IMG/VR virus record: IMGVR_UViG_3300007513_000028
Span: 1-64,000 of that record
Source: a virus
DNA: 64,000 nucleotides
Direction: 5' to 3' (one strand)
The position numbers were made by a program, and so were the translations under genes. Under the pieces are notes generated by a model. That model did no database searches, was not told the DNA's origin, and was given only the letters and a program-made list of their open reading frames with translations. Positions 2,249 to 63,435 of this stretch are shown here, in pieces; within the stretch, counting starts at the first letter, position 1, and each line of letters opens with the position of its first letter.

Positions 2249-3168
2249 TTAGGTTCTTCTCTTTTCTTCTTCTCGTTTTTGTTTTATTTTTTCTATATAT
2301 TCTTTTAATAATCCAACATATAAATCTCTTTCCCAGGGCATCATTCCTTCAAGGTCTGATAAGGTATAATTATAATATTGCATTAATGAAAAGTTTGTTC
2401 GTAAAGTTCCCTCCAACGAGCGGTCAGAGAGAACTAGCCAAAAAAACTAGAGAGTCCCTCCAACAATATTTTTTCCTTATATCCACAGGTGCATACAAAT
2501 TCAATTTCTTTTTGTAGTTTTGGCATTGATGCAAAAAAATGTTCTATCTTTGAGAACTGTTCTTGTGTAAGATTTAAAATAAATTCTTTAAGCTCTTTTG
2601 GTGTATAGTCGGTTTTTCCGTATACGGTTTCTTCGTCGTATAAAGAATCAATACATTTTGTAATTATATCAATTGTAGAATCTGGAGTTGTTACATCAAC
2701 ATTTTGCATTTTTTCCATCATACTCACATCTGGATATTTCATTATTATGCCGACATTGTTAGATAATTGAATTTTGGTCGTGTGAGTTGGATCTTTAATA
2801 ATTTCAATTGTGTTTGTATTAATTTCAACTTCAATTGCTTTTGGTTCCTTCCCTTCTTTTTTTGCCTGCGGGCAATCTTGATGAACATAGCTAGTTTTTA
2901 TGACATCGCCCATTGCTTTTGATCTAAGATTTAATAAAATATATTCAATGTCAAATAATGGTAATTTTTCTGAGTCTATTCCTTTTGTTACCACACAGTT
3001 GTTAATAATTTGCTTGACTGCCTTTGTGATTTCTTTTTCGTCTTTTCCTTCTTTGGCCATCAAAAGAATTTTTTCTTCTTTCACCAGAAAAGGTCTGTAT
3101 GATATTTTTTCTTCTGTTGATGGCAGATTCAACTCATAAAGCGGAACATCAATTTTTGGTAAAGCCAT
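2249..3168 (-). CDS. 26: gp26 -1 frameshift fusion product (predicted tail chaperone, long form, 306 aa)
   Basis: Predicted second product of gene 26. Near the 3' end the codons read agt-ttt-ttt-ggc-tag, which contains the canonical heptamer T-TTT-TTT in the right phase for a -1 slip. After the slip the frame stays open for 63 codons: WLVLSDRSLEG, then TNFSLMQYYNYTLSDLEGMM, PWERDLYVGLL and a Lys/Glu-rich end, stopping at 2249-2251. This accounts for the otherwise empty 2252-2433. The extension has a protein-like composition (an 'MPWERDLYV' block resembling conserved sequences near gene 26 in other T4-like phages, as I recall them) and would end only 6 bases before the next gene. By analogy with lambda gpG/gpGT the long form would link the chaperone to the tail tube. 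The frameshift is inferred, not shown experimentally. Confidence 0.75.
2434..3168 (-). CDS. 26: gp26-like baseplate hub / tail assembly protein, short form
   Basis: 244 aa, similar to T4 gp26 (T4 baseplate protein family). Signature stretches are 'MALPKIDVPLYELNLPST', 'YRPFLVKEEKILLMAKE', 'LPLFDIEYILLNLRSKAMG' and 'SKIEHFFASMPKL'. 'HQDCP' in the middle and 'CTCGY' near the end could form a metal-binding pair of knuckles; that is my inference. T4 gp26 is needed for hub assembly; in this context it probably chaperones the downstream tape measure. A good Shine-Dalgarno (AAGGAG) precedes the ATG at 3168, with a TTAAATA box just upstream (minus strand, 3187-3193). Its 3' end carries the slippery sequence that gives the longer fusion. 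Confidence 0.9.
   Translation of the reverse strand: MALPKIDVPLYELNLPSTEEKISYRPFLVKEEKILLMAKEGKDEKEITKAVKQIINNCVVTKGIDSEKLPLFDIEYILLNLRSKAMGDVIKTSYVHQDCPQAKKEGKEPKAIEVEINTNTIEIIKDPTHTTKIQLSNNVGIIMKYPDVSMMEKMQNVDVTTPDSTIDIITKCIDSLYDEETVYGKTDYTPKELKEFILNLTQEQFSKIEHFFASMPKLQKEIEFVCTCGYKEKILLEGLSSFFG
2440..2446 (-). other. Slippery heptamer T-TTT-TTT for -1 ribosomal frameshift
   Basis: Seven T residues on the minus strand, phased as T TTT TTT relative to the gp26 frame, two codons before its TAG stop (2434-2436). A -1 slip gives codons ttt-ttt-tgg and leads into a 63-codon open frame. Downstream sequence could fold, but I did not identify a convincing pseudoknot by eye. Confidence 0.75.
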
Positions 3169-3200: not shown

Positions 3201-3977
3201 CTAAACTAGCATAGTTCCATCAAAATTTATAGGTTCTCCTGCCAGATTTCCTGCACTACTCGCAGCAGATGCACTACCACTCTGAGTTCTCTTTTTCCCA
3301 AGATTCTTCATGAAGTTCATTCCCTGACCAACCTTGGACATGAACTGGCCATCTGCCCTGGAGAAGATTGCAGCCCCTGTCTGTTCAAGCAGCCCACCCA
3401 CATCAAAGTTGGGATACAGACTGTTGACGCTCAAGAAGTTTCCAAATGGATTTATACTCAATGGTTCTTCTCTCCAATAACGATATGCAAGTGTCACCTG
3501 TAGATTATGAAATCCGTTTTGGGTCGCCCAGTCCAATTGAAGTGGAGCCACCATGACAGGATAGGCATCAATCAGTTTTACTCCATATTGTGATCTGCCG
3601 GAAGAATCAAATTGTTCTATGACGACATCAGAAACATAGTCTTCAAAATAGCTGTATTCATTGCTCGAATTATTGTCACAGATGAAATTTTGCCATTCTT
3701 GAAACATGGCTTTCATTCCCATGTCTTCTCGACAATATAGACTAAGAACAACATCATCATATACATTTTGATATGGAATTTTTCTTATTGGGCCGTGTGT
3801 CGTATATTCTTGTGTGGCGAATGCCCGACCGGGGAGTTGTGCCTGATTGCACAGAACTGCCATGAGTCTTGAGTCTTCTGTATCGACAATGGCTCCCGAA
3901 AACATTACGCGAAAATATGCCGGGCTGGCCAGAGTTCCATTTACTCTTGATGTGAATTCGTTTATGTCAAATGGCAT
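3201..3977 (-). CDS. 54: Tail-tube-fold protein, probable gp54-like baseplate/tube initiator
   Basis: 258 aa. It starts 'MPFDINEFTSRV', close to the start of the gp19 tube protein later in this window ('MPFSINNFRAELV'). It shares the tube-protein pattern: an N-terminal strand, 'LPGRAFATQEYTTHGPIRKI' (compare gp19 'IPGADIGLVEVPYFGRNIKL'), 'MFQEWQNFI' (compare 'GLVNWMNSI'), and 'LIDAYPVMVAPLQLDW' followed by 'QVTLAYRYW' (compare 'MINCWPSSVAAIELGW' and 'AVTWQYDYW'). T4 gp48 and gp54 are tube-like proteins that seed the tail tube on the baseplate. Because gp48 is recognised separately at 5150, this one is best read as gp54. The C-terminal 60 residues are Gly/Ser-rich. The ATG follows immediately on the upstream gene's stop, consistent with translational coupling. 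Confidence 0.8.
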   Translation of the reverse strand: MPFDINEFTSRVNGTLASPAYFRVMFSGAIVDTEDSRLMAVLCNQAQLPGRAFATQEYTTHGPIRKIPYQNVYDDVVLSLYCREDMGMKAMFQEWQNFICDNNSSNEYSYFEDYVSDVVIEQFDSSGRSQYGVKLIDAYPVMVAPLQLDWATQNGFHNLQVTLAYRYWREEPLSINPFGNFLSVNSLYPNFDVGGLLEQTGAAIFSRADGQFMSKVGQGMNFMKNLGKKRTQSGSASAASSAGNLAGEPINFDGTMLV

Positions 3978-5149: not shown

Positions 5150-6757
5150 ATGGGAATGTTTTCAGACATGGGCTCTCAGCTATTGGGCGGCGGAAGCGGG
5201 CCTCTTGCTTCATTGTTTGGAGACAAACATTCTTCTACGGGACTTAGTTTTCCTTCTGATGTCGAAGGCGTCGGCCAGAGGCATTTTATTCGGTTTAGTA
5301 TTGTTGATATTGACGGTGGAAAAATAGAGACTGCCGGAGAAAAAAGCTCAACAGAGGCAGAAACGAGTGCCGAAGGAACTCTTCTTGGGGGTCTTGCCGG
5401 AGCCGCAGTTGGTGGCGGAATTGGAGGAGCTTTGCTGGGTGGGGTTGTGGGAAATGCTGCCGACAAGCTAGGAGTTTCGAGTGCAGTCGGCTCTCTGGTT
5501 TCTGGTGCAGAAGACATTATCGGCAACGTCGGTGGCGCACTTGATAGTGCCGTTGGTGGCATTGCAGGAAGTCTGGAAACTGGCATAGAGAGTGTTGTAG
5601 AGACTGCACTCGGGCCTGTCGTAGGAGCAGTTGATGATCTTGTGGGCGGCGCCTTGGATGTGGTTCAGGATCTTACTGCGGGTGCCTTGGATGTTGCCGG
5701 GGATTTGCTTTCTGGGGAAATTCCTGATATTCCTGACCTACCATCCCTAGATGATATTGGTGCAAAATTAAATCTTGATGCCCTGAAAGATTTGATTCCT
5801 GATCTTGATAAAATTGAGTTGCCGACGCCTGACTTTAGTATGTTAGAAAATGCATGGGATGACATTTCTGGTGCAGTCTCTGATACCTGGGGTGAAATTT
5901 CGGCTCTTCCTGGGAAACTTGCAGATGCCATACGAGATGAAGAACCGCCCGAGGCAGATGCAGCAATGCCCGCCGCCGAAGGCGAATCAGAAGAGACTTC
6001 TCCGGTGACAGAAGGAACTCGGTCAACTGTAGGTGATATTATTCTATATATTCCTTTTGGCATTTCAGAAACATATCAGGCAAATTGGAGCGGTGGAAAT
6101 CTTGGAATTTATGGTGCAATTGATACAAAGGGAATTGATACTGCTCTTAGTAAATTGGGTTCTGCCGTGTTGAATAAAAATTCTGAGGCGATTCGCGATG
6201 CAGTAAGTTCTGGGTATGATGCTCTCCAGGCAGCCGCAGATAACGCTGGAGCCAATAAGTCGGGATTCACCGCAGAATTTTTGGGAAGAGGCCTCGGCGC
6301 GGCGCTTCAGAATGATGCGATTGTAAAACATAAACTAAAATTAGAATCTGGCGGAGGGGGAGAGCGAGGCCTTTCTGTAAATCCACATTTTGATTTATTC
6401 TTTGATGGGGTCAATAATCGAACATTTACTTTTGATTTTAAAATGGCTCCAAAAAATGCAACAGAGGCTGCTAATATTGCGAGTATTGTGCGAATGTTTA
6501 AGACTCATGCAGCCCCCGGTGAAAATGCAGGAATGACTCGTTATTGGACATATCCTCATGTATTCCAAATTGAATATTGGAATCTTGAAAATACTCATAG
6601 AATTAAAGATTGTGCCCTGGTCAATATTAATGTCAACTATAGCGGAATTGGGGATAATCACACCTTCTATGATGGTTATCCAATTCAGACTGACATATCT
6701 TTGACCTTTGCCGAAATGTCACTACTCACAAGAGAAGATTTTGAACAAGGATTCTAA
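5150..6757 (+). CDS. 48: gp48-like baseplate tail-tube cap protein with large Gly/Ala-rich insertion
   Basis: 535 aa, against 364 aa for T4 gp48. The N-terminus 'GLSFPSDVEGVGQRHFIRFS' (about 31-50) and the C-terminal half (from about 290: 'ILYIPFGISETYQANW', 'ERGLSVNPHFDLFFDGVNNR', 'TFTFDFKMAPKNATEAANI', 'MTRYWTYPHVFQIEY', 'YDGYPIQTDISLTFAEMSLL') fit the gp48 family of tube-like proteins that sit on the baseplate and start tube polymerisation. Between them lies a low-complexity stretch (about residues 65-290) rich in Gly, Ala, Val, Asp and Pro, first Gly-rich ('GGGIGGALLGGVVGNA'), then amphipathic with repeated 'GALDVV/GALDVA' and 'PDIPDLPSLDDI'. gp53 starts 5 bases after the stop. Confidence 0.88.
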   Translation: MGMFSDMGSQLLGGGSGPLASLFGDKHSSTGLSFPSDVEGVGQRHFIRFSIVDIDGGKIETAGEKSSTEAETSAEGTLLGGLAGAAVGGGIGGALLGGVVGNAADKLGVSSAVGSLVSGAEDIIGNVGGALDSAVGGIAGSLETGIESVVETALGPVVGAVDDLVGGALDVVQDLTAGALDVAGDLLSGEIPDIPDLPSLDDIGAKLNLDALKDLIPDLDKIELPTPDFSMLENAWDDISGAVSDTWGEISALPGKLADAIRDEEPPEADAAMPAAEGESEETSPVTEGTRSTVGDIILYIPFGISETYQANWSGGNLGIYGAIDTKGIDTALSKLGSAVLNKNSEAIRDAVSSGYDALQAAADNAGANKSGFTAEFLGRGLGAALQNDAIVKHKLKLESGGGGERGLSVNPHFDLFFDGVNNRTFTFDFKMAPKNATEAANIASIVRMFKTHAAPGENAGMTRYWTYPHVFQIEYWNLENTHRIKDCALVNINVNYSGIGDNHTFYDGYPIQTDISLTFAEMSLLTREDFEQGF

Positions 6758-28871: not shown

Positions 28872-31800
28872 ATGCCCAAGTTTGATTCACCGATAAATAT
28901 AAAGACTCTCAAAAGCAGAAGTAGCAATTCTGCATTGGTGCATCTTGGTGATGACAACAGAGTTGGCATAGGTACTGAGGCTCCAGAAACAAAACTCCAT
29001 GTCGATGGTGCCATTACTGCCACTGGCCTGGTTGTCCCTGCCGGAATTTTGTCTACGTCTGTGGACACCGCCGAGTTTTGGGGATTTAATCCAAAATTTG
29101 ATACATGGTATTTTGATGAACTTAATTTTCCTGTGGCCAATGGATATATTCAGACATCCGGCACAGATAAAGTTGAAAAGTCTTCGGATAGTGTTCTTGG
29201 TTCCTATAGCGCCCGATGGGCCCAGAGCATAGGATCTGTCTGGGAACGAGAGGTCGAATTTCCAGAACCTCTTTATGCCAATGTCTTTGTCCAAGGAACA
29301 TATTCATATAAGTTTGAGTATTATGGTTCAGGAGAACCCGGCCTTGCGATCACGCTGACACATAGAGAAAAAGCTAACAGCGACCTTTCGTCTGTTGTCG
29401 GAAAAACATGGGCTTCCGAGTATTCAAATACGTTTATTTCTCCTACATTTCCTTTGCATACGCTTGGGAGTTGGCAGACCGCCGCATGGCGAGCGCATAC
29501 TCCTCCGAACCGAGAAATTACCAAACTAAAGATTGAAATTATTGCAAGTTCTGCTTTGGGGCAGACTTATGATTCGGCAGACGCCGGGATTGAATTGAGT
29601 GGCGGCGCCGGGACTGCGACATCCATTGGTGGTGATGATGATTATGATTGGTATCTGGATGGCCTGGCATTCAATTTTATGCATCCCGATGCAAGAATTG
29701 ACCAAGAGGGAAGAATCACGGGCGCATATATTGCATATGCAGCAATTGATGATGCACACATAAAGAATATGATTTCGTCTCCTGCGGCAAGGGTTATTGC
29801 CCCAGCCAGCCACCCCACTTCGGCTGGCTTATATGTAGACGGATTGGTTGCAAACGACGACTATGCTGCCGGGTGGAGCATATCCAAAGACGGAACCATC
29901 AAGGGAACGGACATTAAAATTTACGGTCCTGATGGCAAGGTCAAGATTTCTGGAAGTGGAATAAATCCATTTGCCGAGTGGGCTGGCCGAAGCCTTGCAG
30001 ACCTTGACTCAAGTGCATCGTCCTATCTCTACGGATTGGCATTTGAGGAAAGTAACTCCACCGGGCTTATGGCCAACGTCGGATTCTTGGCAACGTCAGG
30101 AACCGATTCTGATGCCATTGTTTCCAGCGCACAGTCATTATATATTGCCAATACTGTTGATGGCACGGCATCTATCGGAAGCGCACTTGCAAACGGAACA
30201 ATTCAGTACAACGGAATTGCATCAAATGCTCCTCCGGGTTCTATTTTTACTGGCGGAAAGAATGTAGTCAAAAATCAAGATGCCTATATTTTGTTTTTGG
30301 CCAACACGCAAAAATGGGATTCTGATATTGGTGCCCAGCAAAAGTATCATGCAAACACTCTTCTTGGTGAATATGGCCTCTATGTTCTAGGAACACCCAC
30401 AGTCGGCGGATGGGTATATCATCCCCATGCAAATGACACATGGTATTCCATTGATTCTCTTCAGTCTGGCAATCGACTACATGAAGACGACTTTCTGGTT
30501 GTCGGTAAAATCAAAACAGATATTTCTGGCAACATTCTTTCTGGAGTTCTCCAGCCTCCGAAATCTCCAGATTCGATTACTGCTCCAGAGGCATTAACTT
30601 CTGCTCCTGCCATTAATATTCCGGTTGGTGGAATTCTTTTTGCAGATATTCATTTAAACCAATGGAATCATACTGCAAACTCAGGTGAAGTCCAACTCAC
30701 AAATTCGAGAAATAATCCAAATACTGAATTTACTTTTATCCATCCCGGAACAAATGATCCAAACGACAGCACACTTCATACAGTAAACGGTGCCTATGGT
30801 GTTCTTACAAGCCTTGAAGATTTTCCAGGGACTCGATATATTACATTTGTGGGTGCAGATAGAACAGACGAGCAAGTGGCAGCGGGCACACCAAGCTCTC
30901 GATTTACATTACAGACTGGCCATTCTCCAGATTTTGTTGCAGCCTTTCCGCTCGGCACTCCTCCGCGATGGTACTACAATCAAGATGAAGGAAAGTTTTC
31001 TACATTCACGCCGACTGACAGAGATTGTATTGTTGCCCGTGTGGATGCCAATGGATCAGTAGGGGCACTCACAAACATTTATCGGTATGCCGAACGCGAG
31101 GCAACCACTCCAGAGGGCGGAGTAATTTCTGATGTAATCATAAATCCCCCATTGGGAATGGCATCCGGCGGAACTCTGTTTGCAGATCTACATGTAAATA
31201 AAGAATTTAAACAATCCGACAATACCACTCCAGCCAATACTGGTTTTGTTGCTCTGGTAAATACCGAAAATAATCCAAGAAACAGGTTCTTTGTCATTCA
31301 TCCAGACAACGGATACTTTTGGGAAGTTGCAAATACTGGTCGCGGCGTCGTAACCAACTTAAATAACGGAGTGCGAACTGGGGGTTCAAATACAGGAACC
31401 CGACATATTGCATTCGTCGGAGGCACCTGGCCGCACGAAGAGAACCGATTCCCGATGGCAGCCGGATATGAAAATGTTTCCAATGATTTTATTGCAGTAA
31501 CCAAATATCATCCAGACACAGGAAAGATACATCCAACTTCTGGAGTATGGTATTACGACAATGGGCAGAATGCGACCACCACGTTTACTGTCAATGCCAA
31601 TGATTTTATTATTGCCACACTCAGTTCGTTCAATGCACAGACAGATGGGATCGACCAAGTAACCCGCTGGTCCGGCCGTGCCGCACAGATTGAAATCAAC
31701 GGAGAAATGGTAACCGTTGACAGCATAAGGAACGATCTGTTGGGTGGCATTGCTCATGTACTCGACTATGCCGAAACGGCTGCAAACACGGCAATGGATC

Positions 31801-34800
31801 AGGCAATTCTTGCATATGATCTTGCTGCCAATGCGTCTGCCAATGCAACAAAATCTTTGGGGCTTCTTGATAATCAGAATGTTATTTATTTTACAGAAGA
31901 AGGTTCTGCTGCTCCTACGAGTGGAACCTATGGGAATGCTCAGTCTGATGTTGCATGGACATACAATGACATATGGATTAATACGAGTATCTACGGCAGG
32001 CATCTTGATGGGTCGTGGAGTACCAATGCAATTTTCAGGTATGCCAATTCGGGCGGCGGCTTTGACGATTCTTCTGCAACAGAGACTTCTTCTGGTTCGA
32101 CGGTGGGGCTGGCATGGAGAAGCGACCGCACCAATCCTACTGGGCGTGCATATATTGTTGGCCTCGAAGGAAGAGATTTGGCAGACAGGGCTCAAATTAA
32201 TTTCTATGTCCCAAGGTCCGCAGAAGTCTATCCGTTTTATGGTCCGAATGTCGCCGTTCTTTCTACGGGAGAATTAAATAGAAATCCAGAAGGCGACCAA
32301 TGGTATGACATATTCGGAAATCCTCCAGAGAATCATCTTTATATCTATAGAACAAATACTGCATTTAGTAATAATTCACACTATAAGGTAAGCACAGAAG
32401 ACGGATTTGTTTCGGCAGCCCATAAGGGATATATTTCAACAGGCCTGGGTGCCTGGGCCCAGACGGTTCACAATACTGCAACATCTGGTCTTTGGGACGA
32501 GACAACAAAGCCAACAGGATGGTGGGACTTTCAGGATGGTGCCGCAGGAGATGCAACAGGTCTTGTAGACTCAGAAAGAAATGCAAGGATTGCCGCCGAT
32601 CAAATAATAGATGACAGCGCAGCAAATGCACTTTCGAGAGCAGCAGATGCACAGGCGGCCGCCGACAGGGAAATCCTTGCATTCTTTGAGATTGGTGCGC
32701 CGACTGCCACAAGCAATGGTGATGTCTGGATCAAGACAGACACCGCAATTGATTCCACAGGAACCAAGAATTTAAATTCAATCTTTGTTTCAAATACCAC
32801 TTCGGGCATTCCCGGAATTGGAGCAGGGAGTGACCTTTTCTGGAACTATGGGCCAAACAATGCAATTGGTTTGATGTATCTTGAAAGTTATTCTTCGGGT
32901 GTCTCTGGAGTATTTGATCGTGGCACTAATATTATGCCAAGAGGATATTCTCTCTTTGATGCTCCTCTGAGTGATTATGATATTTCATTAGACCCCACAC
33001 AAACAAATCTTCCATATCCATTTTTTCTTGTATCGCATAGCTCGCTTAGTGGCACTCCTAAAGATACTGTAATAAGCATTAATACAACTTCTGGCTGGGT
33101 TGGAACAAATTCGTTAGAGGTTTCGGGAAATAGTGAAGTTTGGGCACGATTTACGCGCCAGGGCCTTTGGACCCGAGGCTCGTATAATTATCCAGCAGTT
33201 CATCTTCCAAGAGGAAAAAAATGGATTTTGTCATGGTATGCGAAATCGAATAATGCACTTCAAACTCGCATTGCCCCCGCCCTAGGCCTTCGAGACAAAG
33301 ATAGCCCATCGGCAAACATAGTAACGGTTTTCAATTCCACCAATGGCAAGGGAAGACTCAGCGCCAATAATGAGTGGGAACGAATGTGGGTATATTTTGA
33401 CCTCACGGGAGCAAATGCCACACACACCGATCTTGATATTACTGAATATGATTCAGAACTTTATGGAAGGGGTCTTGTTGATGGAATAAGTTCATTAGCC
33501 CCTGCCGACCCATCCCATATTTTAGTCGGTACTGGAGACTCTACCCCTTGGTCAAAACCATATGCAGCAAATCTAAATTCTATGATGATTCGATTGGATG
33601 CCGTTGCGGTAGATTCTTCAGGAGTCAAAGCAGGCTCGACCCATAATGTACACGCATGGTTCGATGCCCTCCAACTAGAAGAAGTCCCAGACAACGTATA
33701 TGCTCCGTCACAATTCAAAGAACCCTCTGATGGGACTGCAATTGTATTCGGAAGAAAAATTACAGATGGAAAGATTGTTACCCATTATTATGATTCCAGA
33801 GACAATGGCGGCCAGCATGGACCCATTCCAAATACGACTCCGACAGGGCTTCCGAATCCACAACCGCACGGAGACTTCTGGATTGATACAGGAAATAATA
33901 ATATCATTTTCAGGTATCACCAGAATGATTTTAATGCAATTCCGACTGCTCAAAATATTTTCTGGACATCTGTAACAAACGGAGATGGCTGGTATACAAC
34001 AGAAGACTTGAGGACAGGCAATGCACTCTCTACTTCCTATGATGCGCTCGCAAATGCGGCATCGGCTCGGGCGGCCGCCGACAGAGAAATCTTTGCATTC
34101 TTTGAAACTGGTTCACTTAATAATTCATCACCACCAGTCGCTTCGGGAAATGGTGATATATGGATTGATACAGATAGTTTTGCAACGCTGAATACAAGTT
34201 CAATATATGTTGCAAGGGCACCAGGGTCCGGCGCTTGGGAACAATCTCCCGATAGTGCAATTGGTCAGGTCTATCTTGAGGCATGGACTGCCGGAGAAAC
34301 GGCATCGCGGGCAGACTCTCTTGCCATAAGTGCATTCGGAACCAGCGACCTTCCGTTCCCTGTGTATCCAGAAGCCAATGGCATCATGGGAGTGGGCGCG
34401 ACAGGCAATGTGGTGTTCTATAAGAATTCGACCCAGGAGTTTGAACCCGGCACCTCCACCTCGGCCGAGGGAGAGTTTTCTGCATACAATCGCGGAGGAG
34501 TTGATTTCGTCGGACCAACCGGAAAGTTGTGGTATCCAGAATCTGGGGGTTATGGGATTCCCGAAACTGGGGCCATTCACACAAGGCTTGAAGGGGCTGG
34601 CGGCACGGGCGAAACTACTGAAGCAAGGTATATTATGTATACCAATCAAAGTGCTTCCGTGCGATTTTCGAGCCCTGCTGGCATGGGAAGTCATGACCAT
34701 TTTATTACAGTCGAATGGGAACCTGTATCTGAATCGTGGCAAGCGTATGATAATAGTACCGGCGTTTTTAAGTTCACTCCAGACGCAGCAAATGGCGACT

Positions 34801-37800
34801 TTCTTGTTGGCAAAATCACAAGACCAACCGCAGTTCCAGAAGGAATAAAGACTCTGGAATCATGGGTCTTCAAGACCCTTCCTGTCCAGACACAAAATTT
34901 CACAGACGGAAAGATTGTCACTCACTTTGGAACCCACTATACTGTTTCTGGGCCGGACAAGGGCACCTGGGGCCCAATTCCAAATACAACTCCGACAGGT
35001 CTTGCAAATCCACAGCCGCATGGCGACTTCTGGATTGACACTTCAAACAACAATATTGTTTTCCGCTATCATCAGAATGATATTGATGCCGCAGTTCCTT
35101 CTGCCCAGGTAGCTTTTCATTATGCAGCCACCTCGGCTTCTCCAGATGGATGGTACTCCACAGAAGACTTGAGAACGGGCAATGCACTCTCTACTTCATA
35201 TAGTGCAGTTCAGGCTGCGGCGACCGCCCAGGCAGCAGCCGATAGAGAGATTCAGGTTTTCTTTGATCCCTCGACCACAAATTCAATTCCAAATGCTTCA
35301 GGAAACGGAGATGTTTGGATTCAAACCGATCTTGCAATAAAGGCAGATGGTTCTGCAAACACAGGAGCAATCTATAGGGCAAATACACAAAATACAGGAG
35401 CGCACTATATTGACCTGGGTGCCAACTATATGCCGAGAGCATATACTACTTTTGAATATCCAGAAGACCAGTATAGACGCGATAGTGTATCTGTTAAATA
35501 TCCTATTTCTGAAATTGATAATTATTATGGGGCCCCGTCATGGACCGGAAATATTTCTATTGACACGACTCATTCAAAATTTGGTGGGGCAAGCATTCGA
35601 CATAGAATGCGAGAAGAGTCGTTACATTATCACGGGTTTGCGCTAGGAGCAAATTGGCCCCCCGGCACTCATCCGGGAGCGGATACCGAGGCACAATTAA
35701 ATTCTTATGGGGGAATTAAAATTCCCAAAGGAAAAAAGTGGATATTTTCATATTGGACATATACTGACTCCGATTGGTATAGTTCTGCGTCAGACCCTTT
35801 TGACGGGCAAGAGGTTTCAATATGGTTAAGAAATACCGAAACTCCGACTGCGAACCTTGCCTCTGTCCGATACGCCCGAGCAAATATTACTGCAAAAAAT
35901 AAATGGGAGCGGCAATCTGCGGTTCTGGATCTTAGATATACTTCTACAATTCCCGGAGAAGGGCTCCAAGTTCCGACCAATTTACACGGCACAGGATTGC
36001 CTAATTTCACTCTTTTAAGCACAGTCTATACTGCCGAAGGAACAGCGTCTGGCGGAGCAGCCGCCACCCCAATTGCCTGGAATGATGTTGACGAGATTGT
36101 GCCCAGACTAACTATTGCCGATGGCGTGTCATCAAGTTCTTCTGTACGAACCTCCATTCATTCAGGAAACACAATTTGGTATGATGGATTCATGTTGGAA
36201 GAAGACACTTCTGGCACTAATGCCAATACTCCTTCTGATGATGTTCACTACTGGCACCCAGCCCCAAACAATGGAATTGGCACCACATATCTCTTAGGAT
36301 ATGCAAACAATGATTATACGCGGGCCCTTGCAGACGGAAAGATTGTAAATCATTATGGTCCGAACTATGGTTCCAATCCATACTTTGGGCCAGATCCAGA
36401 GTTCACTCCCAAGGACAGGCTGGACAATCCGTCTCCGCATGGCGACCGATGGGTCAACACATCAAACAATAATATTGAATTTGTATACAATCAGAATAAT
36501 TCAAATTATACTGCTCAGACAATTGTGTGGCATCCGGGTTCTCCATTTACCTTTAATGAACTTTCTGACCGTTCTGCATGGTACTCGACAGAAGATGACC
36601 GGGTTGCCAATGCACTTGCGTCTTCGTATAATGCCAATGCTGCTGCACTTGCTGCCCAGGGCCGTGCAGACGATGCATACTCATCTGCGGCAGTCGCACA
36701 GGCAGCAGCCGACAGAGAAATTCTTGCGTTCTTTGCTTTACTTTCTAATGTTCCTGCTGCATCTGGAAACGGTGACATTTGGGTTGTTACTGACTACCCA
36801 GTAAATCTTGACGGAACTCCAAATGTGGCATCTCTTTATATTTCAAATACATTATCAACATCTCCTCCTGCAATTCAAGACTCTGTAACAGCAACACAAT
36901 ATTGGAATCCTGCCCCAGAAAATGCAATTGGTCTTTCATATCTTGAGAGTTTTGCAGCAGGTGTCTCTGGAGCCTATCAGCGTGGTGATAATATTATTTC
37001 AAGAGGGTATTCTACCTTTGATGACCCGGCTGATTATGACATATTTAGAGGTCACGAACCAGGGGTGGGGAAAGTTTCGCGTACAGGACAAGAACCATAT
37101 CCTATGACGGTGGAGGGTGGGGGAGGTATTGCGGAGAACGGCCTGGCAAATGTAACCATTGATACCACAAGGTCGCCCTCAGAAATTCCTGGGGGAAATA
37201 GTTTACGAATTAGGTCACCTCTTACTCCTTCCGGCCTAGAGGTGACATTTGCCAACGTCAATTACTATGACGATACTACTTCTGCTGCTCATAATGGAAC
37301 TTGGGCAATCAAAATTCCAACAGGAAGACGTTGGGTATTTTCTTATTATGTATCTGGAGATAATGATACATTAGCCACAGGCGCCCATAATCCATATATT
37401 ATTCAATTAAATTTAAAGGATACCCAGAATCCAAACGCAAATGTGGCATACCTAAGATCAAATGAGGCCAAGTCGATACATCCAGATATTGATGAAGCAA
37501 ATGTGTGGGTACGCAGATCTACTGTTATTGATTTTACGGATACCGAACATGATATGGGATGGAAGGACGGAGACGTTCCGTGGGCTCCTGCGGGCGGAAA
37601 TGGGAAAGGGCATTACCATCCGACTTTAGGGTATGATGCACCTGGCAACGGATGGCTTGTGTATGGGGCTGGGCCAGATGTTGGCGACGCGCCATACGAA
37701 CCTCTGTATGCTGCCAATGTAGATAGCATGGTTATTCATTTGGGCCCGAGATGGGGCGAACAAGCCGAGGGCTTTCGGCGAGCAGTAGGCAATACCATGT

Positions 37801-40800
37801 GGTTCTCTGGATTCCAGCTTGAAGAAGTTGCATCTGATATAGTTACCCCGTCTGAATTCAAGCGACCCACAGACAGAACCGATATTATCTTCGGCCGCCA
37901 AATCACAGACGGCAAGATTCTCACACGATATGAAACCCATTATCCAGATGATCTCTCGGGAACACATTGGGGCCCAAATCCAACCATCACTCCAAAGCAG
38001 GGTCTGCCCAATCCAGAACCCCACGGAGATAGCTGGCACAATACATCAAACAACAATCTGATTTTTAGGTATCATCAGAACACCTCAGACAATTCTGCAC
38101 AGACAATGTTCTGGACGGCAAGCACAGATCCAGAGGCTCCTTCTGGATGGTACTCGACAGAAGACCCGCGAACCATCATTGGCGTCAATGCAAACACGAC
38201 TGCCCATGAGGCACTTGCCAATGCAGCAACAGCACAGGCGGCCGCCGACAGAGAAATTCAGTCTTTCTTTGCAGTCCATACTCCTGCACAAACTGCAAGT
38301 GGAAATGGTGATGTCTGGATTCAAATTGATAATGTATTAAAGTCAGACGGCACGGCAAACACAGGTTCAATTTTTGTGTGGAATGATGCCATTCCTGAGT
38401 GGCAACAAAGACCAGAAAGTGCAATTGGCCGAGGGTTCCTGAAGACATTCACAGAAGGAATTGGAAGCAACTGGATGTCCAAGGCATTTTCTACATTTGA
38501 TGAAGATCCAAATGACTATAATCATCAGATAACTTATTTAAATCGACCAGACAGGAATACTGCTGGCGCGAACCCCGATTGGCACAATGAACATCCCGGG
38601 GCCCCATATCAATTTTATGGTTGGCAGCATAATACACATACAACAAATACAACATATGGATATGGAGATTCTGGCAGCCTTGTTGTCACGACAAACAATG
38701 TTCTCGGCGGAACCTTTGGTTCAGAAGATGACCCGTGGACCGACTGGTATGAATCTCATTTATATATCGGAGCGGGGACATTTGACCATCCTGTATATTT
38801 CACGGACCCATATAATTATATCAGAGTTCCAAAGGGCAAGAAGTGGATTTACTCTTTCTACATCCGAACGGACTTTGCCACTCCGACAACTGCCCCAGGT
38901 GGAAAATTTTATTTACAAGATTTTATTGTAAGAAACTCTGAAAACAAAAAAGCAAATGCAGTATATATGAATAGTTTTGAGATGGCTCCTGTGGGAACGG
39001 GGGCTGTTCCTTCCAGATGGATTCCGGTAACCGATGCTGCCGCATCTGGCTGGGAAAGAGTTTCTGGTGTTTTGGATTTATCTTCCGAGAGCTTTGTGGT
39101 TGGTAGTCAAATTGATAAGGACAATCATACGGCAGCAGGAATCTTTGAAGATAATGGCGCGACAGCCGCAAAAATTAAATATAATGAAGTTGATGAACTT
39201 CGATTTCATTCGTATACAGGATCGCTTGTCGGAAATACAATATGGATAAGTGCGGCACAATTGGAAGAAGTTGCTGGCGAAAGAATAAATCCAAGTCCAT
39301 TCCAAGAACCTTCTTCAAAGAGCCAACTTGATTTTGCCAGAGCCATTGCAGACGGAAAGATTGTCACTCACTATGAACCAAATAGTGGAAATCCAAATTA
39401 TTTGGGCCCAGACCCATCGACTTTTCCAAAGTCGGGCGAACCCAATGTGACTCCCTTTGGTGATCTTTGGGTTGATGTCGCAAATAATAATATTGTATTC
39501 CGTTATCATCAGAACACTTCAAACTATACTTCAAGAAAAGTTTATCATGCAAATACTGCACCGCATAATCATGCCGATGAATCTGGATGGTATTCCACAG
39601 AAGACCTGAGAACTCCAGATGCTGCTGCCATTATTGGCGATGACTCGACGCCGGGAACTCTTGTGTACGATACCCAGAAGGCACTCGCAGATGCAGCAAA
39701 GGCTGCGACAGCCGCCGATGCAGAACTTTTTGTGTTCTTTGAAACAAGTTCAAACACAGACATGATTGATGACCGTTTTGGTTATGGCTCATCGACAGGC
39801 CCGGCAACAGGAAATGGCGACATTTGGATTCATACTGACTTTGCAACAAATCCAGATGGTACTCCAAACAATCAGGCAATCTACTTTGCAAACCTGAGTA
39901 CAGATGCAGCCGGGCCTGGTGTTGTCCGCATAGGAACCACAGGCTGGACACAATCCCCAGACAACGCAATAGGTCGCGGATTCATCGAACAGTTTGCGAG
40001 TGTCGGTGTGAAGAATTGGATGCACTCTGGGTATTCTCTCTTTGATGAGCCTATAGATGACTATGATATTCCTGACACCTCTTCGGGAACCAGAGCATAT
40101 GGAGGTTTTACTACACGACCATGGCCAATGGGAAGAGTTCATAATGCATCTTTGCTTGAAATTGATACTTCCGGTGGTGCCAATGCATATATCGGAAGCA
40201 CAAGTCTAAAATATACTCATGGCGCATCGGGTGGCGGGCAAGAATCCACAGTTGGTTTGGCAAATACATATAATCCTGTTTCTCTTGGGCCTTGGCCAGC
40301 CAAGTATGCAATTGAGATTCCCAAGGGAAAGAGATGGATTTTTTCTAGTTATGCAAAATCTAATGATGCCTCGGCAGAATTTAGACTCCGTGTTTATGGA
40401 GCAAACATTTCTCATAGAACTACTTTTGTGGGAACCTATGATGCGAATGGAGTGTCTTTAGGAACTTCCGGTGCCTATAAAACTGTTTCGGCGGCTGATA
40501 CTTGGGACAGGATTTCTGGTGTTCTTGATTTGTCTACGTCAACTAATGATTTAGACCAAATAGACCAATTAGTTATTGTATTAAATACAAAACATTCAAC
40601 AACCCAGGTTCGTGAAAATTGGTTCGACGCAATCCAACTTGAAGAAGCCCCTGGGGCCAGAATCCTCCCCGGTCAATTCTCTGACCCTGACAGACAAATC
40701 AGCGATGACTTCGCACGGGCACTCTCAGACGGAAAGATTCTGACCCACTATGAACCTGCCATTGACAATCTCAAGGCATGGTGGATGATGGATGCCGCAA

Positions 40801-43800
40801 ATACCTCTGGGTGGATTGCGAATGAAGTTAATCCTGGGACTTATGATGCGGTGTGGACGGAGAATGCAACTCAAAATACATTTGTTGGCGATACCATCTT
40901 TGGGGCCGGAAAGAGTGCAGACCTTCTAAATACTGCCGGAATTGGTTTGCTTGAAGATGATGATGTCAATACATTAAACGAGACAACATATACCATTTGG
41001 TTCAAACCAACCGGGCAAAATCAAGATACTGGTGCAAGAATTATTACAAGAGATGTTTCTTCTTTTTGGGGATTGTATTTTAGTGGTAATTGGAGTGCTT
41101 CTGCCCAGACAGGAGATGTGCTACCAGTAATATTTAATATAGCAAGTTCAGTTTCTGATACAATGTCTGCTGGCGTAAAATTTGGAGTATGGAATTTCTT
41201 TGCAATTACTCTTGATTATAATACAAAGGTAGCAAAATCATATTCTTATAATGAAATTGATGGATTTGTTGTTGAATCACCAAGCCTTACTATACCTTCG
41301 ACTGCAACCCCATCTAATGATCCTGATCTAACAGACGAAGGATCTCCATTTCATATTCGTTCCGTTAAATTGGGAATTAATTCCGAATCTCCGGCAGCAA
41401 AAATAATAGAAAACCCTACCAGTCGTATACACGGAAGATATGACCATGTAAGATTCTATGACAAGGTTCTCTCCAAACCTGACATTGATGCCATCTTTAA
41501 CATAAGAACCCGAACAAGAAAACAACCAGACGCCGAACTGTATCCGTACTGGTACTCCAACAATGTTGTATATGGGCCAGACCCCGAATTTACTCCGCAG
41601 AAAAGACTCCCAAATCCTGCACCCCACGGGGATTACTGGTATGACTCTTCGGACTTCAATCGACCATTCCGATACAATCAGAACACTTCCAACAAGGTCG
41701 CTCAGACGGCCTACTATTCGACCATTGCATATCAAGAAGAAAAACTTGGATACGAACCCTCTGGATGGTTTACCACAGGCGACGGAACCGCCGAAATTTC
41801 TGCCGACTCTATTGGTGATGTAGGAAGAGATGTTGCAGAATCACTTGAAAACATAAGGCGACTGAATCCTCTTGTTGACCATGAAATTAAGATTTTCTTT
41901 GAGACAGAAGGCACGACACATTTTGCAAATGCATTAGGCACGCACACCACAGCCGCCTACGGAGACATCTGGATCAACACCAGCGACTATAATGCCAATG
42001 GCTATACTGGTGGATTGGTTTCCAATGCAATCTTCCGATGGCAGAACAGTCTCGGTTTGTCTACTGACGATACAAGAACAGAGGCTTCGAGCGGAGCAAC
42101 TCAGGGCCTGGCATGGCGTTCCGCAGAAGACGATGCATTCGGTCAAATTTATCTTTCTGCATCCTATGCCTCAAATGCAGCCGACCGATTGGTTGCAGTC
42201 TATTCGGGCTCAGGAACTGCCGAAGCAAGTGCATGGTATGGTCCGAACGTTGCATTCACCATGACAGGAATTCGGAATCCAAATCCAGATGGTGATCTCT
42301 GGTATGACACAGGAAATAATAATATTGCTCATGTGTTCAACAAGGTCAATGGCACCTGGCCCGAGTTTGCACAGACTGTTCATTCTGATGCATCTTCAAT
42401 GGTTTCCGAAGGATGGTACAGACTTGAAGACCTTCGGGCGGCGTCGGCCGACCGCGCCCGTGAGATTGCACTTGCGACAGGAACGGACAGGCACGCTCAG
42501 ATATTTACCAGTACAACTGCTCCGACAACATCAACAGGCAATGGTGATATTTGGGTTGATACGAGTGATATATTAAATTCTGATGGTACTGCAAATTATG
42601 ATGCAATTTATATTGCAAATACAAAAGACCCCACTTCTATTCCTGCAAATGATGGAAGAGGCTGGACAGTAGAACCAAATAGTGGTCTTGGTCGTTCACA
42701 TCTTGAAAGACTTATGGGCGAATCAGGAAGAAATTGGATGCCAGCCGCAATCTCTTTGTGGAATTCACCTTCTGTAGATTATCAAATATTACACGCAAGT
42801 ACAACTTGGCACACAAATCCATTGCCTCCCGAACCATTACATAGATTTCATTCGTATGTGGTGCTTCGGACTCCCCGGCCGCATACTTATTATAATACAA
42901 GTGGCGGGCTTTCTTCAACAGATGGAATTGCAGGTGTCGGAAATACTGCGCGTATTGAAATTATTTCTGATACAAATGTTGGTCCGACAGGAAATAGTTA
43001 TATTAGTGGAAAGGCATTCCGAACATATACTGGAAATACTATAGACTCAGATGGCAATTCTCATGAGACAGATTATTTGCTAAGTTGGTTTGCGAATGCT
43101 GCTGCCAGCGAAGAGTCTGCATGGGAATCACCTGCTGTGATTGACATTCCAAGAGGAAGAGATTGGATTCTTTCTTATTATACAAAATCCTATAGCTATC
43201 CTGCCATCAGCCCTGCCGGTAACCGGACTGGAGAATTAAGAGTATACGCTAAAAAGAAATATGATGATGACGGAAGCGCAAATACATGGCATACTGCCCG
43301 AGATGGCGGGCTTGGTTTTGACGTGAGCGCCCCCCCATACCCCACTCAAGGAGAATGGGTAAGAAGACATAGCTTTCTTAACTTTTCTCGCGACGGCCAA
43401 GAAGGCGGCAGGTATGGAACTAATTATTCTATAAAAGAAGGAAGTGAAGTATATAATGGAGTCTTTGAAGGTGCTGATGGTGGGCTTGCTACTGTTGGTG
43501 CGACTGTAGATATTACTAATCCTGAATATGTAGAGTATACAGCCGAAGCAGATGGTTTTAGACCAACTCATACACTAGACAGCGGTGATTTCGCACAATT
43601 TGCAGGAGTGGACGGGGGACTTGTTACTGCAAATGTTCAATCGGTTGTCGATCATAACATGCCCGGAGTCCAAAGTATCACGTTTGGGCGCATCAACTGG
43701 AAAACAACCGTGGATACTACAATGGGAGGGGCGGACGGCAAGCAAACGGATATTCGTTGGTCTGGAACTCCTGCGGTCGGCGGCGCATGGACAAAAGTTT

Positions 43801-62892: not shown

Positions 62893-63435
62893 ATGCCTTT
62901 TTCAATTAATAATTTCAGAGCCGAGCTTGTTGGCCAGGGTGCCCGACCCAATCTATATGAGGTCACGATTCCCTTTCCGGGTGCAGTAAATCCCGGCGAA
63001 GCGGGTCAGAAAATGACTTTTATGTGCAAGGGTGCCCAGATTCCCGGAGCAGACATCGGTCTTGTTGAAGTTCCCTACTTTGGTAGGAATATTAAGTTGG
63101 CAGGCAATCGAACGTTTGCCGAATGGACAACGACTGTCATTAATGACGAAGACTTTGCCATTCATGCCGGGCTTGTCAATTGGATGAATTCCATCCAGGG
63201 ACATGGCGAAAACTTGAGGACTATTGCAGGAAATGATTATCAGGTTGATGCACAGGTGACGCATTACAAGAAAGAGGGTGAAGTTGCCAAAATGATTACC
63301 ATGATTAATTGTTGGCCTTCCTCGGTTGCAGCCATTGAATTAGGATGGGATCAAAATGATGCAGTCGAAGAGTTTGCCGTCACATGGCAATATGATTACT
63401 GGCAGATTGCAGACGACAAGACACAAACAACCTAA
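62893..63435 (+). CDS. 19: Tail tube protein (gp19-like)
   Basis: 180 aa (T4 gp19 is 163 aa). 'MPFSINNFRAELVGQGARPN', 'LYEVTIPFPG', 'GAQIPGADIGLVEVPYFGRN', 'IKLAGNRTFAEWTTTVINDE' and 'MITMINCWPSSVAAIELGWD' then 'EEFAVTWQYDYWQ' follow the tube family closely. Hexamers stack to form the tube through which DNA passes. It has its own late promoter box and a strong AAGGAGAG site; it is paralogous to the gp54-like protein at 3201-3977. Confidence 0.97.
   Translation: MPFSINNFRAELVGQGARPNLYEVTIPFPGAVNPGEAGQKMTFMCKGAQIPGADIGLVEVPYFGRNIKLAGNRTFAEWTTTVINDEDFAIHAGLVNWMNSIQGHGENLRTIAGNDYQVDAQVTHYKKEGEVAKMITMINCWPSSVAAIELGWDQNDAVEEFAVTWQYDYWQIADDKTQTT

Follow-up and report, generated by a model that had tools for sequence, protein, structure and literature searches.

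Gene 26 of a marine T4-like virus probably yields two forms of a tail-assembly chaperone through a conserved -1 slip site

In phage lambda, the slip between the two forms of the tail-assembly chaperone takes place at G_GGA_AAG. A short protein and a -1 long form are made there ahead of a long tape-measure-like ORF, from genes G and G-T (Xu, Hendrix & Duda 2004). In PMC12846349, myoviruses of the Vandenendeviridae and Andersonviridae are described with tail-assembly chaperone (TAC) loci that have a poly-T -1 frameshift upstream of the tape measure. The same text credits Vladimirov, Gautam & Davidson 2022 (Virology 566:9-15) with finding poly-T -1 signals in the TAC-N genes of T4-like phages. 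In some T4-like phages, a short gene accompanied by a longer fusion gene takes the place of frameshifting, according to PMC10885494.

Here we analyse a locus of this kind in an uncultivated T4-like virus whose nearest relatives are marine. The DNA studied, hereafter the window, is a stretch of 64,000 nucleotides that forms part of a virus record of 69,673 bases. It resembles lambda in having a short protein, a -1 extension of it and a long tape-measure-like ORF in succession, but the protein family (PF12322), the slip site (T_TTT_TTT) and the T4-like contractile tail are all different. The Vandenendeviridae and Andersonviridae loci differ in belonging to other phage families and in their GTTTTT motif, as given in PMC12846349. 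Judging from T4 gp26/gp51, the chaperone genes treated by Vladimirov et al. 2022 are apparently the same as ours; as PMC12846349 and PMC10885494 relate it, they have the same poly-T -1 signals and the same split between frameshifting and a short gene plus a fusion. According to these citing papers, the frameshifted chaperone of T4-like phages is already published as regards chaperone identity, poly-T sites and the T4 fusion alternative. The present analysis adds the scale of the conservation test, a hairpin particular to the window's clade and an exception in phage Cygsa01. In the texts consulted we found no earlier description of the hairpin with its synonymous constraint, and the overlap with Vladimirov et al. 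2022 may be larger.

Organisation of the gene 26 locus

The features of the locus are collected in Table 1. In profile searches the product of gene 26 matched the T4_baseplate family of Pfam (PF12322, E 2.5e-58) and phrog_150 of the PHROG collection (E 9.5e-64). Read on the minus strand, the gene ends in CTC TCT AGT TTT TTT GGC TAG. The heptamer T_TTT_TTT stands in the phase that tandem -1 slippage requires, and a ribosome that slipped would continue with TGG (2440-2438) CTA GTT CTC. The extension closes with a TAA codon (2251-2249), and the next ORF begins with the ATG at 2242, after a spacer of six bases (2248-2243). A fusion product would count 243 + 63 = 306 amino acids. The sequence of the window at the slip locus recurs identically in two other IMG/VR contigs (L081 and L082). 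A preliminary description made from the letters of the window had reported a correctly phased T_TTT_TTT and a -1 frame, open for 63 codons, that gives a 306-aa product and stops 6 bases before the next start; direct reading of the minus strand bore out the first, and the second agreed to the base.

Table 1. Features of the gene 26 locus, in window positions
Feature	Positions	Strand	Basis
Gene 26, short tail-assembly chaperone form (TAC-N, G-like), 244 aa	3168-2434	minus	PF12322, phrog_150, AF2 model
GGAGGG, SD-like, 9 nt upstream of the heptamer; possible stimulator	2461-2456	minus	direct reading
Slippery heptamer T_TTT_TTT, in phase with gene 26	2446-2440	minus	direct reading, relatives
-1 extension, 63 codons + TAA; gp51 / T-like C-terminal domain	2440-2249	minus	phrog_634, tblastn, collinearity with T4 gp51
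TAG stop of gene 26; a single codon (GGC) between heptamer and stop	2436-2434	minus	direct reading
Hairpin, 13 bp, 5-nt loop, 4-5 nt past the heptamer; likely frameshift stimulator	2435-2405	minus	folding, relatives, synonymous constraint
567-aa ORF, tape-measure candidate	2242-539	minus	position, Ala/Gly-rich composition

An AF2 model of gp26 was obtained with a pLDDT of 91.8. Its best matches among PDB structures were 3fgx_A (Z 8.0 over 86 residues, 3.9 Å) and YqbN of B. subtilis, 3klu (Z 6.7 over 86 residues, 4.6 Å), which span gp26 residues 5-96; the next, unrelated row had a Z of 2.8. Foldseek by itself ranked 3fgx at E 3.5. Both structures are presumably XkdN-like tail-assembly chaperones (Phage_TAC_5), and PF08890 was present in B. 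subtilis among the controls. With moderate support, the modelled fold of gp26 thus resembles that of XkdN-like tail-assembly chaperones. The N-terminal part of gp26 would share this fold with XkdN-like chaperones of PBSX-type contractile tails with no detectable sequence similarity to them; a search of PDB sequences with the gp26 profile revealed no relatives, only chance matches. In the model of a T4-type gp51 fusion the extension forms three C-terminal helices, and a fold search with that model found no chaperone among the aligned chains, the best unrelated match having a Z of 5.0.

Conservation of the slip site and identity of the extension

Gene 26 sequences were taken from 160 IMG/VR loci and phage records and clustered at 80% identity, which left 98 representatives. 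An in-frame T_TTT_TTN is present in the last 20 codons of gene 26 in 92 of these 98 non-redundant loci, compared with 17 of 1005 20-codon windows (1.7%) in the remainder of the same genes. A heptamer of the X_XXY_YYZ type close to the end of the short ORF is, therefore, both found in the window and conserved among its relatives; the variants are TTTTTTC (60 loci), TTTTTTT (30) and TTTTTTA (2). A short ORF for the chaperone, overlapped in the -1 frame by an ORF that adds a C-terminal extension, is present in the window and in 95 of 97 relatives; in these, the -1 frame runs for 45 codons or more beyond the gene 26 stop before it closes, as against one locus for the +1 frame. The first Phe codon at the slip is TTT in all 92 loci, against 68% TTT among Phe codons elsewhere; the preceding codon has T as its last base in 92/92 loci, versus 30-71% elsewhere, a bias that is partly implied by the choice of heptamer-bearing loci. 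The set reaches relatives with gp26 identity as low as 25-30%, among them Aeromonas phage Aeh1, Vibrio phage ValKK3, Sinorhizobium phage phiM19 and Pelagibacter phage Mosig. The slip signal is real and widely conserved, far beyond chance.

Compared with the PHROG profiles, the extension matched phrog_634, 'baseplate hub assembly catalyst', the family of T4 gp51 (E 2.9e-19). A tblastn search with the extension (E limit 10) returned 551 phage records, mostly of cyanophages; in the best of them, with E values of 1e-8 to 1e-11, the match is to a feature labelled gp51 or adjacent to gene 26, and many of the best matches begin at the second codon past the slip. In an alignment that includes T4 gp51, protein conservation runs unbroken over the slip, with the residues L-S-H-x-S-L ... 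N-F ... P-W-E-R conserved directly past it. Counted in the -1 frame downstream of the hairpin, the differences within the window's clade are 256 at first, 61 at second and 469 at third codon positions, a pattern which indicates that the extension is under purifying selection at the protein level in this frame.

Several expectations of the preliminary description are settled by these data. The conservation of slip site and -1 frame that it had proposed to look for at the 3′ ends of gene 26 of relatives was found, and its proposed selection test on the extension came out as purifying selection. Its view of the extension as protein-like holds, but falls short: the extension is gp51, annotated elsewhere as a separate gene. 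Its equation of gene 26 with the lambda G/GT gene gains support from the conserved slip, the purifying selection and the homology to T4 gp51. In our judgement it is very likely that gene 26 and the -1 frame downstream make up a single locus for tail-assembly chaperones, of the lambda G/GT kind, and this marine T4-like virus probably makes two forms of the chaperone by a -1 slip near the end of the gene. The basis of this reading is the anatomy of the locus, the conservation, the selection on the extension, the lack of an independent start, the collinearity with the T4 fusion and the chaperone-like fold of the N-terminal part.

Most GenBank annotations draw gp51 as a CDS of its own, which would make it a separate small gene with its own start codon or one translated by termination-reinitiation after gene 26. 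Codon 20 of the extension is indeed an ATG in the window, and in phage Cygsa01 the two reading frames meet in a TAATG stop-start overlap with no slip site. The conserved residues directly past the slip, however, precede every possible start codon in 75 of the 92 loci, in which the first 8 extension codons contain no ATG, GTG or TTG despite conservation from there on. SD-like motifs precede the candidate start of the extension in 5/92 loci and gene 26 in 68/90; none was found ahead of a possible extension start in the window. A separate gp51 would, moreover, leave the conservation of the heptamer without a reason, and T4 holds the same residues in one frame. With SD-like motifs nearly absent and no starts before the conserved block in most loci, an independent gp51 start was rejected, and we regard a separate gene as very unlikely.

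Still less likely is slippage of RNA polymerase, instead of the ribosome, on the T run. The window would offer it seven consecutive T, but 60 of the 92 loci have only six T and then a C. Transcriptional slippage usually occurs on runs longer than six T. The T run keeps strictly to the phase of a ribosomal heptamer, and the synonymous conservation of the hairpin agrees with ribosomal shifting. We give the least credence to the possibility that the open -1 frame and the T run arose by chance, or that a sequencing error has split one long ORF. Although the gene is A+T-rich and T runs are common in it, the identical sequence in two other contigs, conservation far above background and the way in which selection in the -1 frame is spread over codon positions all speak against this, and the conservation data refute it.

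The data indicate that gp51, annotated as a separate baseplate-hub assembly catalyst in many records of cyanophages and marine phages, is in nearly all of them the C-terminal part of a frameshifted gp26 fusion; hundreds of gp26/gp51 annotations should probably be joined.

RNA stimulators and a proposed mechanism

The hairpin of the window has a minimum free energy (MFE) of -17 kcal/mol (z -2.9), and it folds in the window as well as in 8/8 relatives examined. The 5′ arm of the hairpin was part of the pattern that fetched three of the nine hairpin loci (L180, L181 and L183), and the synonymous test was repeated on the six that were obtained by protein similarity alone. In these six loci synonymous differences per same-amino-acid codon amount to 0.15 in the hairpin codons versus 0.51 in the rest of the extension, so that synonymous changes in the hairpin appear to be suppressed about threefold. 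No compensatory changes in the arms were found among the examined relatives, only a consistent U-G to U-A change; the support for the hairpin therefore comes from its stability and from the synonymous constraint.

Over lineages, the RNA past the slip had a mean z of -0.96 versus -0.23 in controls (p 0.013), while the MFE itself did not differ from controls (p 0.36). A universal downstream RNA structure found no support, the structure being strong in the window's clade and weak or variable in others. Because of this variability the hairpin is not a general requirement and looks clade-specific. GGAGGG, which may act as a further stimulator, occurs in 18/92 loci, with many more having other SD-like strings; it doubles as the coding sequence for a conserved Glu-Gly of gp26. 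We tentatively suggest that the window's clade acquired an RNA stimulator of its own, the 13-bp hairpin conserved at synonymous sites, and that sister lineages have the same slip site and lack that form. If true, the ratio of gp26 to the fusion would be set by interchangeable means among T4-like phages: a bare slip site, a slip site with a lineage-specific hairpin, a duplicated fusion gene, or an overlap of stop and start like that of Cygsa01.

From the locus we infer frameshifting itself, its efficiency, the action of the stimulators and the chaperone function, in the following form. Most ribosomes would end at the TAG codon and release the 244-aa gp26 (TAC-N). A minority would shift at T_TTT_TTT, the Phe-tRNAs that occupy the P and A sites both re-pairing one base back with the aid of the hairpin downstream and perhaps also of the upstream GGAGGG. 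Translation would then run on through gp51 to give the 306-aa gp26-gp51 fusion (TAC-NC). If the parallel with lambda holds, the role of gp26 would be to coat the tape measure while it is unfolded; the tail contributed by gp51 would bring in tube or tape-measure protein as hub and tube are assembled.

Variant arrangements and neighbouring tail genes

Gene 26 of T4 reads TTC TTT and has no slip site. The T4 gp51 gene lies on the opposite strand; its product matches PF12322 over residues 1-201 (E 3.9e-52) and carries the phrog_634 extension in frame. T4 is thus like the window in having PF12322, here in both proteins, and unlike it in having two divergent genes with the fusion in one frame. The 306-aa fusion corresponds in T4 to gp51 (249 aa), which is encoded in one frame and is collinear with the fusion through the slip. 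T4 uses no frameshift here: gp26 has its own gene, and the fused gp51 is read in frame from another. The same arrangement was observed in phages Stupor, RB43 and SFHK24 and in T4-type contigs. A slip site was found in 0/14 T4-type loci with an in-frame 26+51 fusion gene, 14 being an upper bound as the end of gene 26 was not seen for one or two. Since the slip site is absent where the fusion gene exists, lineages with a separate fusion gene appear to do without a frameshift site. In one T4-type contig (L194, IMG/VR 2974754850) the gp51 fusion gene at 1501-2246, 746 bases long, is not translatable in one frame; it is a broken copy or a sequencing error.

In Pseudomonas phage Cygsa01 (L172, 3300-3482) gp51 is in the -1 frame with its ATG overlapping the stop of gene 26, and no slippery heptamer was found at this locus. 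The overlap is possibly a third way to make both chaperone parts. As most lineages seem to make the two products by frameshifting, and T4 the same two from a duplicated fusion gene, marine T4-like phages offer a ready system for the question of how phages hold a chaperone ratio fixed.

Downstream of the extension, a long ORF begins beside the stop in most relatives. Position and Ala/Gly-rich composition are the only grounds on which the 567-aa ORF of the window is a candidate for the tape-measure role. It matched no PHROG family, its homologues are detectable in a few close relatives only, and as a homologue of T4 gp29 it was rejected after phmmer and an iterated HMM search yielded none. A strong terminator-like stem-loop of 17 pairs (496-534) lies between this ORF and the ORF converging on it from the plus strand (16-462), and is probably a terminator common to both.

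Two genes of the tail-tube family phrog_45 are present in the window, one adjoining gene 26 (3201-3977, minus strand) and one adjoining the sheath gene (62893-63435, plus strand). They are probably the gp54 tube initiator and the gp19 tube protein, respectively. The tail region also contains a single ORF of 5879 aa (28872-46511, plus strand), the first 1376 residues of which matched no PHROG family. A gp48-like tube cap is encoded at 5150-6757 (plus strand), with a phrog_230 match over residues 289-534; the N-terminal ~290 residues of this protein are Ala/Gly-rich and resemble the tape-measure profiles phrog_58 and phrog_305.
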